Shown: piece after piece, positions 35,629 through 41,588 of the stretch
Layout: each line of letters starts with the position of its first letter
Position numbering within the stretch: position 1 is the first letter of the stretch
Origin: Gemmatimonadetes bacterium T265
GTDB taxonomy: Bacteria; Gemmatimonadota; Gemmatimonadetes; Gemmatimonadales; Gemmatimonadaceae
Length of the DNA stretch: 64,000 nt
Direction of reading: 5' to 3'
Assembly (NCBI GenBank): GCA_019973575.1
Contig: BPUI01000002.1
Span: forward strand, 682,001-746,000
Notes under the pieces: model-generated
What the model saw: the letters and a program-made list of their open reading frames with translations, nothing else
Told to the model about the DNA's origin: nothing
Database searches by the model: none
Program-made: the position numbers and the translations under genes

Positions 35629-35705
35629 GCTTCACCAGAAGGCGGACGTGCGTCCGGCGAGCTGCGGTCTTGGCTCGCCGGCGCAGAGTTCGTTGGTAGC
35701 CCACG

Positions 35706-35737
35706 GACCGCGCGCCCGGCACTGCCGGCGCGCGGTC
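35706..35737 (+). promoter_or_regulatory. Leader hairpin upstream of SusC pair 3
   Basis: A 14-bp stem with one bulged base (35706-35720 with 35724-35737, 3-nt loop) ends 39 nt before the GTG start. It may control readthrough or translation of the downstream pair. Confidence 0.5.
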
Positions 35738-35766
35738 GTCCGGCGCGCCGCATCCATACACCCCGT

Positions 35767-35780
35767 AGGAGGACATGTGA
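35767..35780 (+). promoter_or_regulatory. AGGAGG ribosome site with an ATG-TGA start-stop overlapping the GTG start
   Basis: AGGAGG (35767-35772) is followed by ACATGTGA. ATG 35775 is immediately followed by TGA in its frame, while GTG 35777 opens the SusC frame. The two starts overlap by one base and share the ribosome site. Confidence 0.7.
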
Positions 35781-38773
35781 GGCAACTCCGTACGCTGCTC
35801 CCCACCGCAGCGGCCCTGGTCGCCAGTGCGGCGGTCGCGCGGCAGGCGCAGGCGCAACGCCGGGTGACCGGAACCGTCACCACCGCAACCGGCGAGGGGA
35901 CCCCTACGCCCCTCGCGGGCGCCACGGTGCAGATCGTCGGGACGACGATCGGGACGTACACCAACGACGCGGGGCGCTTCACGGTGCAGGTGCCGGCCGG
36001 CGCGCAGGTCATCCGCATCCGGCGGATCGGGTACCAGGCGCGCACCATCCCGGTGGCAGCCGCGGTCACCGACCTCGGATCAGTCTCGCTCGCGAAAGAC
36101 GTGCTGCAGCTCGAGACGCAGGTCGTCACCGGCCAGGCGACGTCGGTGTCGAGCCGGAACGTCGCGAACGCGGTGACCGTGGTGCAGGCCGCGGAGGTGA
36201 ACCGGGTCGCGCAGCCGACCGTCGAGAACGCACTCCAGGGCAAGGTCCCGGGCGCGGTCATCACGCAGAACGGCGGCGCGCCGGGCGGCGGCGTCCAGGT
36301 CCAGATCCGCGGCAGCAACACGGTCAACGGCAACTACCAGCCGTTGTACGTGGTCGACGGCGTCATCGTCAGCAACGACGCGATCCAGACCGGCCTCAAC
36401 TCGATCACGGGCGCCGGCACCGGCGTCGTCACGAGCCAGGACCAACAGGTCAACCGCATCGCCGACCTGAACCCGCAGGACATCGAGTCGATCGAGATCC
36501 TCAAGGGGCCGTCCGGGGGCGCGATCTACGGCTCGCGCGGCGCCAACGGCGTCATCGTCATCACGACGAAGCGCGGCCAGTCCGGAACGCCCGCCGTCGA
36601 CGCGATCGGGCGGCTCGGCACGCAGTCGCTGGCCAACAAGTACGACATGCGCTGCTTCACGTACGACCAGGCGGTGGCGGAGGCGAAGGCGGACTTCAAC
36701 ATCACCCTCACGCCGCAGGACTACGCCGGGTGCGTCGACCCGCAAGAGACCCTGTACGGGAACCACTACACGTCGTACGAGGCGTCCGGCCAGGTCCGCG
36801 GGGGCAGCCCGACGACGACCTACTTCGTCTCGGGGTTGGCCAAGCGCGACGCCGGCCTGGCGACCAACACCGGGTTCGACAAGCAGTCGCTGCGCCTCAA
36901 CCTGACGCAGGCGCTCGGCACGTCGGTCAACCTGCGGGCGAGTTCCGAGATCCTACACACGCTCACCGAGCGCGGGATCTCGGGCAACGACAACAACAAC
37001 ATCGCGCCGTACACGATCCTCGGGCAGACGCCGACGTACTTCGACTACCGCCGCCGCGACGCGCTGACCGGCCAACTGGTCAGCGACCCGTTCGTGGGCG
37101 GCGGCGCCAACGCGCTGCAGGACCAGCAAGCGATCCAGACGCCGGAGAACGTGTACCGCCTGATCGGCAACGCGTCGGCCGACTGGTCGATCCTCGCCCG
37201 CGAGAAGCAGACGCTCAGCTTCAACGTGCTGGGCGGCATCGACGCATACGCGGACCGCGGGCGCATCTACTCGCCCCCCTTCACGTACATCGAGCAGAGC
37301 AAGAACATCAGCCCGTACCCGGGCACCGTCGTCGAGAACAACAGCAACGTCGCCAACGCGAACCTCAACGCGTCGCTCGTCCACCGCGCCGTCCTCGGCT
37401 TCGCGACGGCGACAACGTCCGTGGGCACGCGTGACGAGTACGGCGACTTCCGCCAGGCCACGAACCTCGGCCGCGGGCTGCTGACCGGGGTCACCAACTT
37501 CACGACCGCCATCCAGACGAACGCGTACCAACAGCAGACCACGCAGCGGACGTTCTCCTTCTACGCGCAGGAGGAGTTCCTGACCGCCGCCGAGCGCCTG
37601 CTGCTGACGGCGGCGGTGAACGGGGAGCGGTCGAGCACCAACGGCGACAGCGCGAAGTTCTACTACTACCCGAAGTTCTCGGCGTCCTACAACCTGCCGT
37701 TCCTGCCGCACGGCGTCGACAACTTCAAGCTGCGGCTCGCGTACGGTCAGGCCGGCAACCGCGTGCCGCTCAACTACAAGTACACGTTCCTCCAGCAGCT
37801 ACCGGAGAACGGGATCGTCGGCCTGCGGCCGGCGGCCACGATCGGTCTGTCGACGATCTTCCCCGAGGTCACGACCGAGACCGAGGGCGGGTTCGACGTC
37901 CAGTTCTTCGGCGGGCGCGCGGGCGGCGACTTCACCCTGTACCACAAGGTCACGCACGACCTCGTGCTCCAGACCGGCCTCGCGCCGTCGACCGGCTTCA
38001 CGCTCCTCGACATCAACGGCGGCCGCCTGCGCAACAACGGCGTCGAGGTCGGCCTCAACCTGCTGCCGGTGCAGAGCAAGGCGTTCACCTGGCAGTCGCG
38101 CACCACGTTCTCGCGGAACCGCAGCTTCGTACTGTCCCTGCCGGTGCCGGCCTTCAACACCGGAAGCGGCTTCGGCGAGCGCACCGCGGTGGTGAAGGTG
38201 CAGCAGGGGTACCCCGTGGACGGGGTGTACGCCTACAACGGGTTCAACGCCAACGGCTCGCGGCACGAGCAGTACTTCGGCTCGGCCAGCCCCGACTTCA
38301 CGATGGGCTTCTCGAACGACTTCACGTTCGGCCCGGTGCGCCTGTCCGCCCTGCTCGACTGGCGCAAGGGCGGGTACCTCGCGAACCTCAGTCAGACGTA
38401 CCTCGAACAGGGTGTCAACGGCCAGAGCGGCATCACGGGCGGCAACTTCGCCGACACCGCGATGAACAACCGGGATCAGCTCGCCTACAAGAACGGGATC
38501 CCGGCGTTCCTCGAGCACGGCAGCTTCGCCAAGCTGCGCGAGGTGACCGTGAGCTACGCGCTGGGCAAGCGCGTGTCGAACACGCTCTCCCGCGGGCTCG
38601 CGCGCGACGTCCGCCTCGAGCTGAGTGGCCGCAACCTCGCCACGATCACGCACTACCGCGGCCTCGATCCGGAGGTGTCGAACTTCGGGAACTCGCCGCT
38701 CAACCGACTGTGGGACCTCGCGCCCTACCCGCCGAGCCGGCAGTTTTTCTTCTCGGTCAACTCCTCCTTCTGA
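35777..38773 (+). CDS. SusC/RagA-family TonB-dependent outer-membrane receptor (pair 3)
   Basis: 998 residues, shorter than the other two complete copies. GTG 35777 is 4 nt after AGGAGG and is the only start that gives a proper signal peptide (LRTLLPTAAALVASAAVARQAQA-Q). The regulatory-like domain has VTGTVTTATGEG and TYTNDAGRFTVQVP. The plug has VQIRGSNTVNG, PLYVVDGVIVS, IEILKGPSGGAIYGSRGANG and VIVITTKRG. The barrel ends RQFFFSVNSSF, with the terminal Phe typical of BAM substrates. The SusD gene follows after 18 nt. Confidence 0.96.
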   Translation: MRQLRTLLPTAAALVASAAVARQAQAQRRVTGTVTTATGEGTPTPLAGATVQIVGTTIGTYTNDAGRFTVQVPAGAQVIRIRRIGYQARTIPVAAAVTDLGSVSLAKDVLQLETQVVTGQATSVSSRNVANAVTVVQAAEVNRVAQPTVENALQGKVPGAVITQNGGAPGGGVQVQIRGSNTVNGNYQPLYVVDGVIVSNDAIQTGLNSITGAGTGVVTSQDQQVNRIADLNPQDIESIEILKGPSGGAIYGSRGANGVIVITTKRGQSGTPAVDAIGRLGTQSLANKYDMRCFTYDQAVAEAKADFNITLTPQDYAGCVDPQETLYGNHYTSYEASGQVRGGSPTTTYFVSGLAKRDAGLATNTGFDKQSLRLNLTQALGTSVNLRASSEILHTLTERGISGNDNNNIAPYTILGQTPTYFDYRRRDALTGQLVSDPFVGGGANALQDQQAIQTPENVYRLIGNASADWSILAREKQTLSFNVLGGIDAYADRGRIYSPPFTYIEQSKNISPYPGTVVENNSNVANANLNASLVHRAVLGFATATTSVGTRDEYGDFRQATNLGRGLLTGVTNFTTAIQTNAYQQQTTQRTFSFYAQEEFLTAAERLLLTAAVNGERSSTNGDSAKFYYYPKFSASYNLPFLPHGVDNFKLRLAYGQAGNRVPLNYKYTFLQQLPENGIVGLRPAATIGLSTIFPEVTTETEGGFDVQFFGGRAGGDFTLYHKVTHDLVLQTGLAPSTGFTLLDINGGRLRNNGVEVGLNLLPVQSKAFTWQSRTTFSRNRSFVLSLPVPAFNTGSGFGERTAVVKVQQGYPVDGVYAYNGFNANGSRHEQYFGSASPDFTMGFSNDFTFGPVRLSALLDWRKGGYLANLSQTYLEQGVNGQSGITGGNFADTAMNNRDQLAYKNGIPAFLEHGSFAKLREVTVSYALGKRVSNTLSRGLARDVRLELSGRNLATITHYRGLDPEVSNFGNSPLNRLWDLAPYPPSRQFFFSVNSSF

Positions 38774-38791: not shown

Positions 38792-40198
38792 ATGATGAAG
38801 AAGACGATCGCGGCGCTCGCGAGCACGCTCGTGCTCGCCGGCGCCTGCAAGGAGCCGCTCGGCGCGCCTAACGAGGACGCCCCGGTACTCGGCGCGCCCG
38901 TCACCGCGCAGAACCTCGTCGGCGGCGTGGTCTCGCAGGGCCGCGTCAACGGCAGCTCCTTCGCGTACCTCCTGTTTCCCGAAGGATTCGCGCGCAACGC
39001 GCTTCGGACCGACCCGAATGAGGGGCGGTACGTGGGGGAACTCATCGCCGTCCCGTTCGATCCGAGCGACTTCATCGGCGCGTCGGGGTGGACCGGATTC
39101 TTCCAGGGGATCCGCTCGGCGAACCAGGCCATTGCCAATCCGGCGATCACGGGGCTCCAGGCCGGGGACCGGAACGCGGTCGTCGGTCTGGTGCAAACGT
39201 TGAAGGCGCTCGAGTATATCCGTGCGCTGCAACTCCGCGATACGCTCGGGATCCCGATCCAGACGGCGGCGATCAAGCCGCCGGATCCGCTCCGGACGAA
39301 GACGTCGGTGCTCACGTTCGTGTCGGCGCTCCTCGACTCCGGCTACGCCAATCTGACGGCGGGCGGCGTTGATGCCACGATCCCGGTCTCCCTCCCGTCG
39401 GGCTACACGCTGCACGGCGATTTCACGCAGACCGCGAACCTGGCGCTGTTCAACCGCGGGCTGAAGGGTGAGGCCGAGGTCTACCGACTGCTCGACCACC
39501 AGTCGCCGTGCGCGACGTGCGCGCAGACGGCGATCACCGCGTTGACGACGGCGATCGGCGGCACGACGGCGACGGCGAGCGGCCTCGCGTTCGGGCCCTA
39601 CTACGAGTACAACCCGAACGCGCCGGAGTCTTTCGCGAGGCCGCTGGCGGACAACAAGATTTATGTGACGGACAACTGGGTGCAGTCGATCCAGACTGGC
39701 GACGCGCGGGCGGCGAAGGCGGTGAAGTCGAGCACTCCGTCCGCGACTAACGTCTTGCTGACCCCGCTAACGTACCAGAGTCCGCTGACGAACCCGAGCG
39801 ACCAGACCAGTCCACTCCCGATCCGACGGGCGGCGATGTGGTACCTGCTGCGCGCGCAGGCGGAGGCAGAGTCCGGCCAGCTCGCCGCAGCCACGGCGGA
39901 CGTCAACGTCGTGCACACGGGCGAGGGTAAGCTCGCACCGATCGCCCCCCTCGCGTCGGTGGCCGCGGCGCACGCCGCGATCCTCTACGAATACCGCTAC
40001 TCGTTTCTGTTCGAGGGGCCGCACCACCTGACGATGTTGCGGGCGTACTCGGGACTCACGAAGGCGTACGTGACCCAGCCGGGGATGCCGACCGCCACAG
40101 CCGACCCGACCCACGCCACCGACCCGCTGTCGTCGGCGCTGCCCATTCCAATCGCCGAGCAGCTGGCGCGCAACAACAACACCACGCCGATCCCGTAA
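38792..40198 (+). CDS. SusD/RagB-family lipoprotein (pair 3)
   Basis: 468 residues, starting MMKK; either of two adjacent ATG codons fits. The lipobox region LVLAGAC gives Cys19. The body is helical with TPR-like units: SGWTGFFQGIRSANQAIAN, VVGLVQTLKALEYIRALQLRD, NLALFNRGLKGEAEVYRLLD and AILYEYRYSFLFEGPHHLTMLR. It lacks long loops seen in pair 1 and 2 proteins and contains a CATC Cys pair. Partner of the SusC just upstream. A terminator hairpin with flanking GTTAGGC follows. Confidence 0.92.
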   Translation: MMKKTIAALASTLVLAGACKEPLGAPNEDAPVLGAPVTAQNLVGGVVSQGRVNGSSFAYLLFPEGFARNALRTDPNEGRYVGELIAVPFDPSDFIGASGWTGFFQGIRSANQAIANPAITGLQAGDRNAVVGLVQTLKALEYIRALQLRDTLGIPIQTAAIKPPDPLRTKTSVLTFVSALLDSGYANLTAGGVDATIPVSLPSGYTLHGDFTQTANLALFNRGLKGEAEVYRLLDHQSPCATCAQTAITALTTAIGGTTATASGLAFGPYYEYNPNAPESFARPLADNKIYVTDNWVQSIQTGDARAAKAVKSSTPSATNVLLTPLTYQSPLTNPSDQTSPLPIRRAAMWYLLRAQAEAESGQLAAATADVNVVHTGEGKLAPIAPLASVAAAHAAILYEYRYSFLFEGPHHLTMLRAYSGLTKAYVTQPGMPTATADPTHATDPLSSALPIPIAEQLARNNNTTPIP

Positions 40199-40242: not shown

Positions 40243-40284
40243 GCGAGCCGGACGCGCGTACTGCGCGCTCCGGCTCGCGCGTTT
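40243..40284 (+). terminator. Hairpin after SusD pair 3
   Basis: GCGAGCCGGACGCGC (40243-40257) pairs with 40263-40278, with one extra base on the right and a 5-nt loop, then GTTTGT. About 45 nt after the SusD stop. Confidence 0.7.
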
Positions 40285-40317: not shown

Positions 40318-40752
40318 ATGACGACACGACGAAAGCGGATCGCGCGGCGCGGGGCGGTCCTCGCAGTCGCGATCGCGCTCGGCCTCGCCGGCTGCGCGGG
40401 GCACACGGCCTCCCGGCAGGCGCCGCAGGTCGACCGGAACACGATCACCACGAACGAGATCGCGTCGGCGAACGTCGCCACCGCCTACGATCTGATCCGC
40501 AAACTCCGGCCGCAGTTCCTCGTCGGCCGCGGCCAGCTCACGCTCGACCCGTCGCGCGCCGCGTCGACCGCCCCGGGCTCGTCGTCGCCGCGCGTCTACG
40601 TCGACGAACAGCTGTACGGCGACGTGACGACCCTACGCGGGATCGTCACCGGCGCGATCGAGTCGGTGCGCTTCTACTCCGGGTCGTCCGCGCAGCAGAA
40701 GTACGGGCACGACAACGCCGCCGGCGTGATCGCGATCGTGACGAAGCACTGA
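40318..40752 (+). CDS. Small lipoprotein resembling the end of a TonB-receptor plug domain
   Basis: 144 residues. The signal peptide ends in a clean LAGC lipobox (Cys26). Residues 30-75 (ITTNEIASANVATAYDLIRKLRP) resemble helical start motifs of plug proteins. Residues 90-144 follow the plug signature: RVYVDEQLYGDV, GAIESVRFYSGSSAQQKYG, then GVIAIVTKH, as in SusC VEVLKG-AAAIYG-GVILITTK. It has no barrel and no TonB box I can identify. A GAGG lies 7 nt upstream. The gene sits just after SusCD pair 3 behind a terminator. Possible role: accessory or decoy for receptors; this is inference. Confidence 0.75.
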   Translation: MTTRRKRIARRGAVLAVAIALGLAGCAGHTASRQAPQVDRNTITTNEIASANVATAYDLIRKLRPQFLVGRGQLTLDPSRAASTAPGSSSPRVYVDEQLYGDVTTLRGIVTGAIESVRFYSGSSAQQKYGHDNAAGVIAIVTKH

Positions 40753-40855: not shown

Positions 40856-41200
40856 GTGACTACGCCCGTCGGAAAGGTTCGCAAGAGTGTCCGCATCGAT
40901 CCGGCCGTGCTCGATCGCGCGCGCGCAATCCTCGGGACGACGACGGATTCGGAAACGATCGAGCACGCGCTCGATCTCGTCGCGTTTAAGCGGGAGGTGA
41001 TCGCGGGGATACACGCAGTCGCCGGGAAGAATCTCTGGACCGACGTCTTCGGCGACGGGACCGCCCGATCGAGCACGGGGCACGGAATCGTGGCCCTCGC
41101 CGGCACGATTCCGCCGGAGGATCTTCGGCGCATGGAGCAAGCCGTCGAGGAGGGGTGTGAGCGAGTCGACGAATCCGGGTGGGACGCTCCCGAGTTTTAG
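40856..41200 (+). CDS. VapB-type antitoxin
   Basis: 114 residues from GTG 40856, preceded by a G-rich ribosome-like site; TTG 40844 is the alternative. The N-terminal half has a short DNA-binding-like segment (VRKSVRIDPAVLDRARAIL) then the TDSETIEHALDLVAFKREV helix common to antitoxins paired with PIN toxins. The C-terminal half (GNLWTDVFGDG-like to EEGCERVDESGWD) would wrap the toxin. It overlaps the toxin gene by 44 nt, which implies translational coupling. Family knowledge: VapB neutralises VapC and represses the operon. Confidence 0.85.
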   Translation: MTTPVGKVRKSVRIDPAVLDRARAILGTTTDSETIEHALDLVAFKREVIAGIHAVAGKNLWTDVFGDGTARSSTGHGIVALAGTIPPEDLRRMEQAVEEGCERVDESGWDAPEF

Positions 41201-41588
41201 GTTCCTCCTCGACACCGATATCCTGATCGCCGCACTGGGCGAAGATCCGGTCGTCCTCGACGCCATCGCGCGAAGTGACGAGGTGTTCATCCCTGCGACC
41301 GCACTCGGCGAGTTGGATTACGGCGCAGCCCATTCGGCCCGCCCGGAGCAGAATGTTGACCGTGTAACTTCGCTCGCCGCCGGTCAAGTTGTGCTCGGGA
41401 CCGACGACCGTACGGCGCTGGAGTACGGGCGGCTCAAAGCGGACCTACGCCGACGCGGTCGACCGATCCCCGACAACGATCTGTGGATCGCCGCACTCGC
41501 CGTGCAGCACGACCTCACGCTCGCGACCCGGGACGCGCACTTTGCGCCCGTGACGGACTTGCGCATCGTGCGCTGGGAGAACGCCTAA
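41157..41588 (+). CDS. vapC: VapC-type PIN-domain toxin (predicted RNase)
   Basis: 143 residues from GTG 41157, with GAGG 6 nt upstream. The PIN-domain acidic residues are all visible: Asp19 and Asp21 in LLDTDILI, Glu52 in LGELDYG, Asp108 in IPDNDLWIAALA and Asp126 in LATRDAHF. Family knowledge: VapC toxins are Mg-dependent endoribonucleases, often cutting tRNA or rRNA loops. The overlap with the antitoxin gene and the complete catalytic set suggest a functional pair. The stop codon lies within a 27-bp palindrome that starts in the last codon but one. Confidence 0.93.
   Translation: MSESTNPGGTLPSFRFLLDTDILIAALGEDPVVLDAIARSDEVFIPATALGELDYGAAHSARPEQNVDRVTSLAAGQVVLGTDDRTALEYGRLKADLRRRGRPIPDNDLWIAALAVQHDLTLATRDAHFAPVTDLRIVRWENA

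Follow-up and report, generated by a model that had tools for sequence, protein, structure and literature searches.

A small gene in the 64,000-nt stretch of Gemmatimonadetes bacterium T265 DNA analysed here (the window) is the third gene of a conserved SusC-SusD-miniplug cassette, and its 144-aa product is, judged from sequence comparison and a predicted structure, a lone, shortened plug of the TonB-dependent-receptor type that takes up the whole mature part of the protein and has no barrel. Plug domains are treated as inseparable from their barrels. The mini-plug family appears to be undescribed, the plug domain class itself being known; our search of the open-licence literature, which is weak evidence, found no description of a barrel-less lipid-anchored plug family or of a plug as the third member of a SusCD cassette. 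Barrel-less, lipid-anchored plugs across a whole phylum would offer a natural experiment on the function of a plug by itself, and the branch tied to SusCD a component that may act in trans in TonB-dependent import. We favour the reading that the protein is an accessory subunit of this SusCD importer, located at the outer membrane and facing the periplasm, and consider the chances of its being right and wrong about evenly balanced. When isolated, the plug of FepA behaves like an unfolded protein (Usher et al. 2001, as cited in PMC11658791).

The plug gene follows the SusC and SusD genes on the + strand, with a gap of 119 nt between the SusD stop at 40198 and the start of the plug ORF (Table 1). 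The signal consists of an Arg/Lys-rich n-region and a hydrophobic stretch followed by LAGC, of which Cys26 is the expected lipidation site on sequence grounds. The ORF with its LAGC lipobox, reported in an earlier note on this DNA, is present exactly at 40318-40752, and the membrane lipoprotein which that note had read from the clean lipobox agrees with the wider family, where the strict lipobox pattern is found in 79 of 108 members and in more by eye. A VapBC-like toxin-antitoxin pair lies directly 3' of the cassette (window 40859-41588; PIN domain E 2.5e-14).

Table 1. Features of the SusC-SusD-miniplug cassette, with positions in the window.
Feature	Position	Strand	Description and basis
SusC partner	35648..38773	+	Has a complete plug of its own; start may be at 35777; TIGR04056 E 1.4e-133, Pfam Plug E 6.7e-16
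SusD partner	38792..40198	+	Lipobox GAC-KEP, acidic after Cys; SusD family, weak Pfam match
Hairpin between susD and plug gene	40243..40278	+	Strong, terminator-like; RNAfold; similar hairpins after SusD in relatives
Barrel-less plug lipoprotein CDS	40318..40752	+	144 aa, ATG start; ORF calling, phylum homologues, codon score (coding)
Type II signal peptide, residues 1-25	40318..40392	+	Predicted cleavage before Cys26 (LAGC); sequence, family lipobox pattern
Lipidated Cys26 (expected) and linker	40393..40437	+	Lacks a TonB box and any acidic residue at +2 to +6
Mini-plug domain (predicted), residues 41-144	40438..40749	+	Without two plug loops; alignment, profile, hhalign, structure matches

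Taken singly, the window's mini-plug aligned in register with the SusC_RagA signature (residues 114-143 against profile positions 2-31 of 31, 14.8 bits, E 0.018) and gave no match to Pfam Plug above the Pfam cut-off. This single-sequence match is weak, so the plug reading needed testing at the level of the family. Pfam Plug was matched individually by 14 of 28 aligned members, with a best E of 2.1e-12. Among PDB sequences, the profile of the family alignment (A1, 28 full-length proteins aligned over their length) matched BtuB residues 13-132 end to end (E 5.3e-7) as well as Cir and SusC chains, and hhalign of the family against four SusC plugs of the window gave a probability of 96.8% (E 2.4e-10). 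The earlier note had placed a SusC plug pattern in the C-terminal half; the motifs do stand at the C-terminal end and in register, but the plug spans about residues 41-143 and covers the whole mature protein. Two stretches of the SusC plug, one before the IRG strand and one after the VDG strand, are absent from the mini-plug in the profile comparison. The structure predicted from a five-sequence alignment (A4), none of whose sequences is a receptor, had a pLDDT of 77 and a pTM of 0.65. Its best structural match was the SusC protein BT1763 (Z 8.4, 2.9 Å over 93 residues), with other SusC and siderophore receptors ranking next (Foldseek, VIA-align), and the matches listed were all TonB-dependent receptors. 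A Z of about 8 is modest alone; the all-receptor matches listed and the sequence evidence agree on a plug fold for the predicted model, and an unrelated fold, which the earlier note would have counted against its reading, was not obtained.

The absence of a barrel and of a TonB box, both part of the same earlier description, was also borne out. No C-terminal beta-barrel follows, the ORF ending at 40752 ahead of a VapB-like ORF, and most relatives have open frames of 130-250 aa. A TonB-box-like motif was found in 0 of 108 family members by a pattern that detects 19 of 60 SusC frames, a limited sensitivity that makes the absence supportive rather than strict. Compared with a receptor plug (PF07715, SusC/RagA type), the mini-plug has the same predicted fold and motif order, with the VYVD/VVDG strand and the YG...GVI.I.T end; in contrast to it, the mini-plug has neither a barrel, a TonB-box-like motif nor the two plug loops, and it carries a lipid anchor.

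The mini-plug family is spread through Gemmatimonadota and is under purifying selection. Homologues were found by tblastn in 40 of 59 related genomes, the three named homologue loci all belong to Gemmatimonadota, and 203 of 298 sampled Gemmatimonadota genomes contain a match (E 1e-12 or better), often several and mostly in short frames; the plasmid search found no match. The genome of the window has one family member and about forty other plug matches, most of them in long receptor-sized frames. Two proteins contain two mini-plug domains joined by a Pro-rich linker (L024:1075-1842 and L030:1048-1830, both on the - strand), and tandem gene copies occur in G001, G003, G041 and G157. The A1 consensus is DrNvIT..EI......NAYDaI..LRP..L..RG..S....VYvD....G....Lr.I....i.eIR......A..R.G.....GvI.v.T. 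The signature of the family relative to SusC plugs, with positions counted back from the aromatic-Gly pair, comprises R at -11 (87 of 108 members; E in 27 of 39 SusC), mostly S, D or N at -8 (K in 37 of 39 SusC), an invariant A at -4, and R or K at -1 (105 of 108 members; I, L or V in 38 of 39 SusC). Between pairs of close relatives, dN/dS was 0.04-0.40. That the gene is a decaying fragment of a SusC gene, a reading that draws on homology to receptor plugs only, is extremely improbable: the spread through the phylum, a signal peptide and invariant motifs particular to the family, and a dN/dS far below 1 rule it out. The "domesticated remnant" of the earlier note, understood as decay, falls with it, and the lack of orthologues that would have marked a random decay product is contradicted by the homologues in 203 of 298 genomes.

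The position just after a SusCD pair, which the earlier note had remarked on in the window alone, is conserved. Homologues of the SusD partner were gathered in 118 genomes of the family, and of the best 30, 28 had enough 3' sequence; a plug gene lies 66-281 nt downstream in 22 of these 28 (window included). Because the homologues were picked from the SusD side regardless of the plug, this count is free of selection on the plug. In G157, one of the 22, the plug matches are divided between two short frames, and the gene is possibly broken. Elsewhere in the window's genome, a paralogue with 46% identity to the SusD partner (G000:C2:342964-344343) has no plug gene of the mini-plug family. Starting from the plug instead, a same-strand SusD precedes 19 of the 108 members that have flanks, at gaps of 78-505 nt (within 520 nt); this proportion may be biased upward, because members were ranked by their score against a window-seeded alignment. 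Some four in five of the examined members have no SusCD next to them, which excludes SusCD as the family's sole partner. The suggested co-occurrence with SusCD thus holds for part of the family, but most members lie elsewhere in their genomes. Tandem plug copies aside, no neighbour family other than SusC/SusD recurs broadly, and the neighbours revealed no other broad partner; the remainder is lineage synteny.

In a tree based on few columns and with bootstraps not fully settled, the linked members cluster (7 changes versus 17.8 expected; 0 of 500 shuffles as low). Supported (starred) branches force at least four changes in SusCD linkage, which has therefore been gained or lost several times. 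The supported clade that holds the window's member comprises four linked members; one branch is thus old in its linkage, which appears separately in others (L109; L114/L128; L049/L091/L133). A replacement for a plug-less SusC was also considered and is ruled out, as the window's SusC has an intact plug of its own (Table 1); since this partner is complete, the mini-plug is an addition rather than a replacement.

Because most members are not beside SusCD, a broader envelope function is the main competitor of the accessory-subunit reading. The protein would then be a general periplasmic outer-membrane factor serving many TonB-dependent receptors, or the envelope, in trans, and adjacency to SusCD would be one location fixed in some lineages. 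The predominance of unlinked members, the tandem and two-domain forms and the dozens of receptors per Gemmatimonadota genome are consistent with such a factor, whereas the recurrence of SusCD linkage in separate branches and its retention in 22 of the 28 SusD homologues argue against it, and we regard it as possible, though rather unlikely.

The sequence behind the lipidated cysteine bears on where the mini-plug works. In Bacteroidetes, a Lys/acidic export signal at +2 to +6 is present in surface lipoproteins and missing from periplasm-facing ones (PMC5080379). In the fetched Gemmatimonadota loci, D or E occurs within +2 to +6 in 38 of 39 SusD proteins versus 11 of 79 mini-plugs and 0 of 15 SusCD-linked mini-plugs. 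Because none of the linked mini-plugs is acidic there while nearly all SusD proteins are, the mini-plug probably faces the periplasm and SusD the outside, by analogy with an export rule that is proven in Bacteroidetes and may not hold in Gemmatimonadota. In a few relatives the lipobox is replaced by an ordinary secretory signal of the signal-peptidase-I type, with an AxAQ ending, and this too is in keeping with work in the periplasm.

These signals weigh against a surface-exposed, SusE-like accessory lipoprotein that would bind substrate outside the cell, as does the absence of the plug loops in the alignment to SusC plugs. Although the lipid anchor and the gene's place after SusD, in the susE position, would suit such a role, the lack of the acidic export-like signal in linked members whose SusD partners have it makes this explanation improbable. 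Like the genes of SusE/SusF and other post-SusD lipoproteins, the plug gene encodes a lipoprotein directly 3' of susCD; unlike them, its product has a predicted plug fold, about 119 mature residues and no surface-export-like signal.

As the accessory subunit that we favour, the protein would be a stand-alone, shortened plug lipid-anchored in the outer membrane on the periplasmic side. It may dock onto SusC from the periplasm, at either the barrel or the plug. Once docked, it might, to give an example that is a guess, steady or re-seat the SusC plug between transport cycles; an alternative guess is that it might cover the pore while the plug is displaced. A detached plug could also act in trans as a second gate, the periplasm-facing, tethered mini-plug entering or underlying the SusC barrel when the barrel's own plug is displaced. 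This we find doubtful, and to our knowledge no detached second gate has been described for any TonB-dependent system.

Expression of the plug gene is probably lower than that of susCD, since the gene sits behind the terminator-like hairpin. The susD-plug gap gave an RNAfold z of -3.35, and a strong hairpin follows susD in most relatives too. Hairpins were found after 67% of SusD genes versus 11% of other genes, and also behind SusD homologues without a plug gene, while a stem score of 30 or more is rare (about 5%) upstream of unlinked mini-plugs. The hairpin is thereby ruled out as an element of the plug gene, being mostly absent at unlinked members and present behind plug-less SusD homologues; its frequency after SusD, plug-less cases included, marks it as an end signal or stabiliser of susCD. 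Its position between susD and the plug gene makes co-transcription uncertain. In many loci, the window included, only about 20-60 nt separate the hairpin from the plug start codon, a distance that hardly accommodates a promoter of its own; partial read-through of the susD hairpin is therefore the simplest reading of how the plug gene is transcribed.

Barrel-less plugs of other kinds occur in the same genome. An M56 (BlaR1-like) peptidase has a C-terminal plug without a barrel (G000:C1:2578500-2582500; L037:2101-3864, - strand); this plug may be the domain of a sensor, and barrel-less plugs may thus serve in regulatory proteins. The peptidase lends some plausibility to a TonB regulator or competitor, an idea that the earlier note had raised and in which the mini-plug would titrate TonB or relay the transport state to a regulator. 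The TonB-box-like motif missing from all 108 members, as judged by the partly sensitive pattern described above, and the lack of a conserved regulator gene nearby speak against such a function, to which we assign little probability. The peptidase and the mini-plug have in common a plug without a barrel; they differ in that the peptidase's plug sits on a peptidase-type protein and is below family strength against the mini-plug profile. A second barrel-less plug lipoprotein (G000:C1:29500-32500; L034:734-1279, + strand), with a lipobox before CAS and a Pfam Plug E of 5.3e-9, belongs to a different, SusC-like plug branch. Another plug lies in a 156-residue frame with no barrel there (G000:C1:262500-265500; L035:1517-1984, - strand), which could belong to a longer or frameshifted gene.
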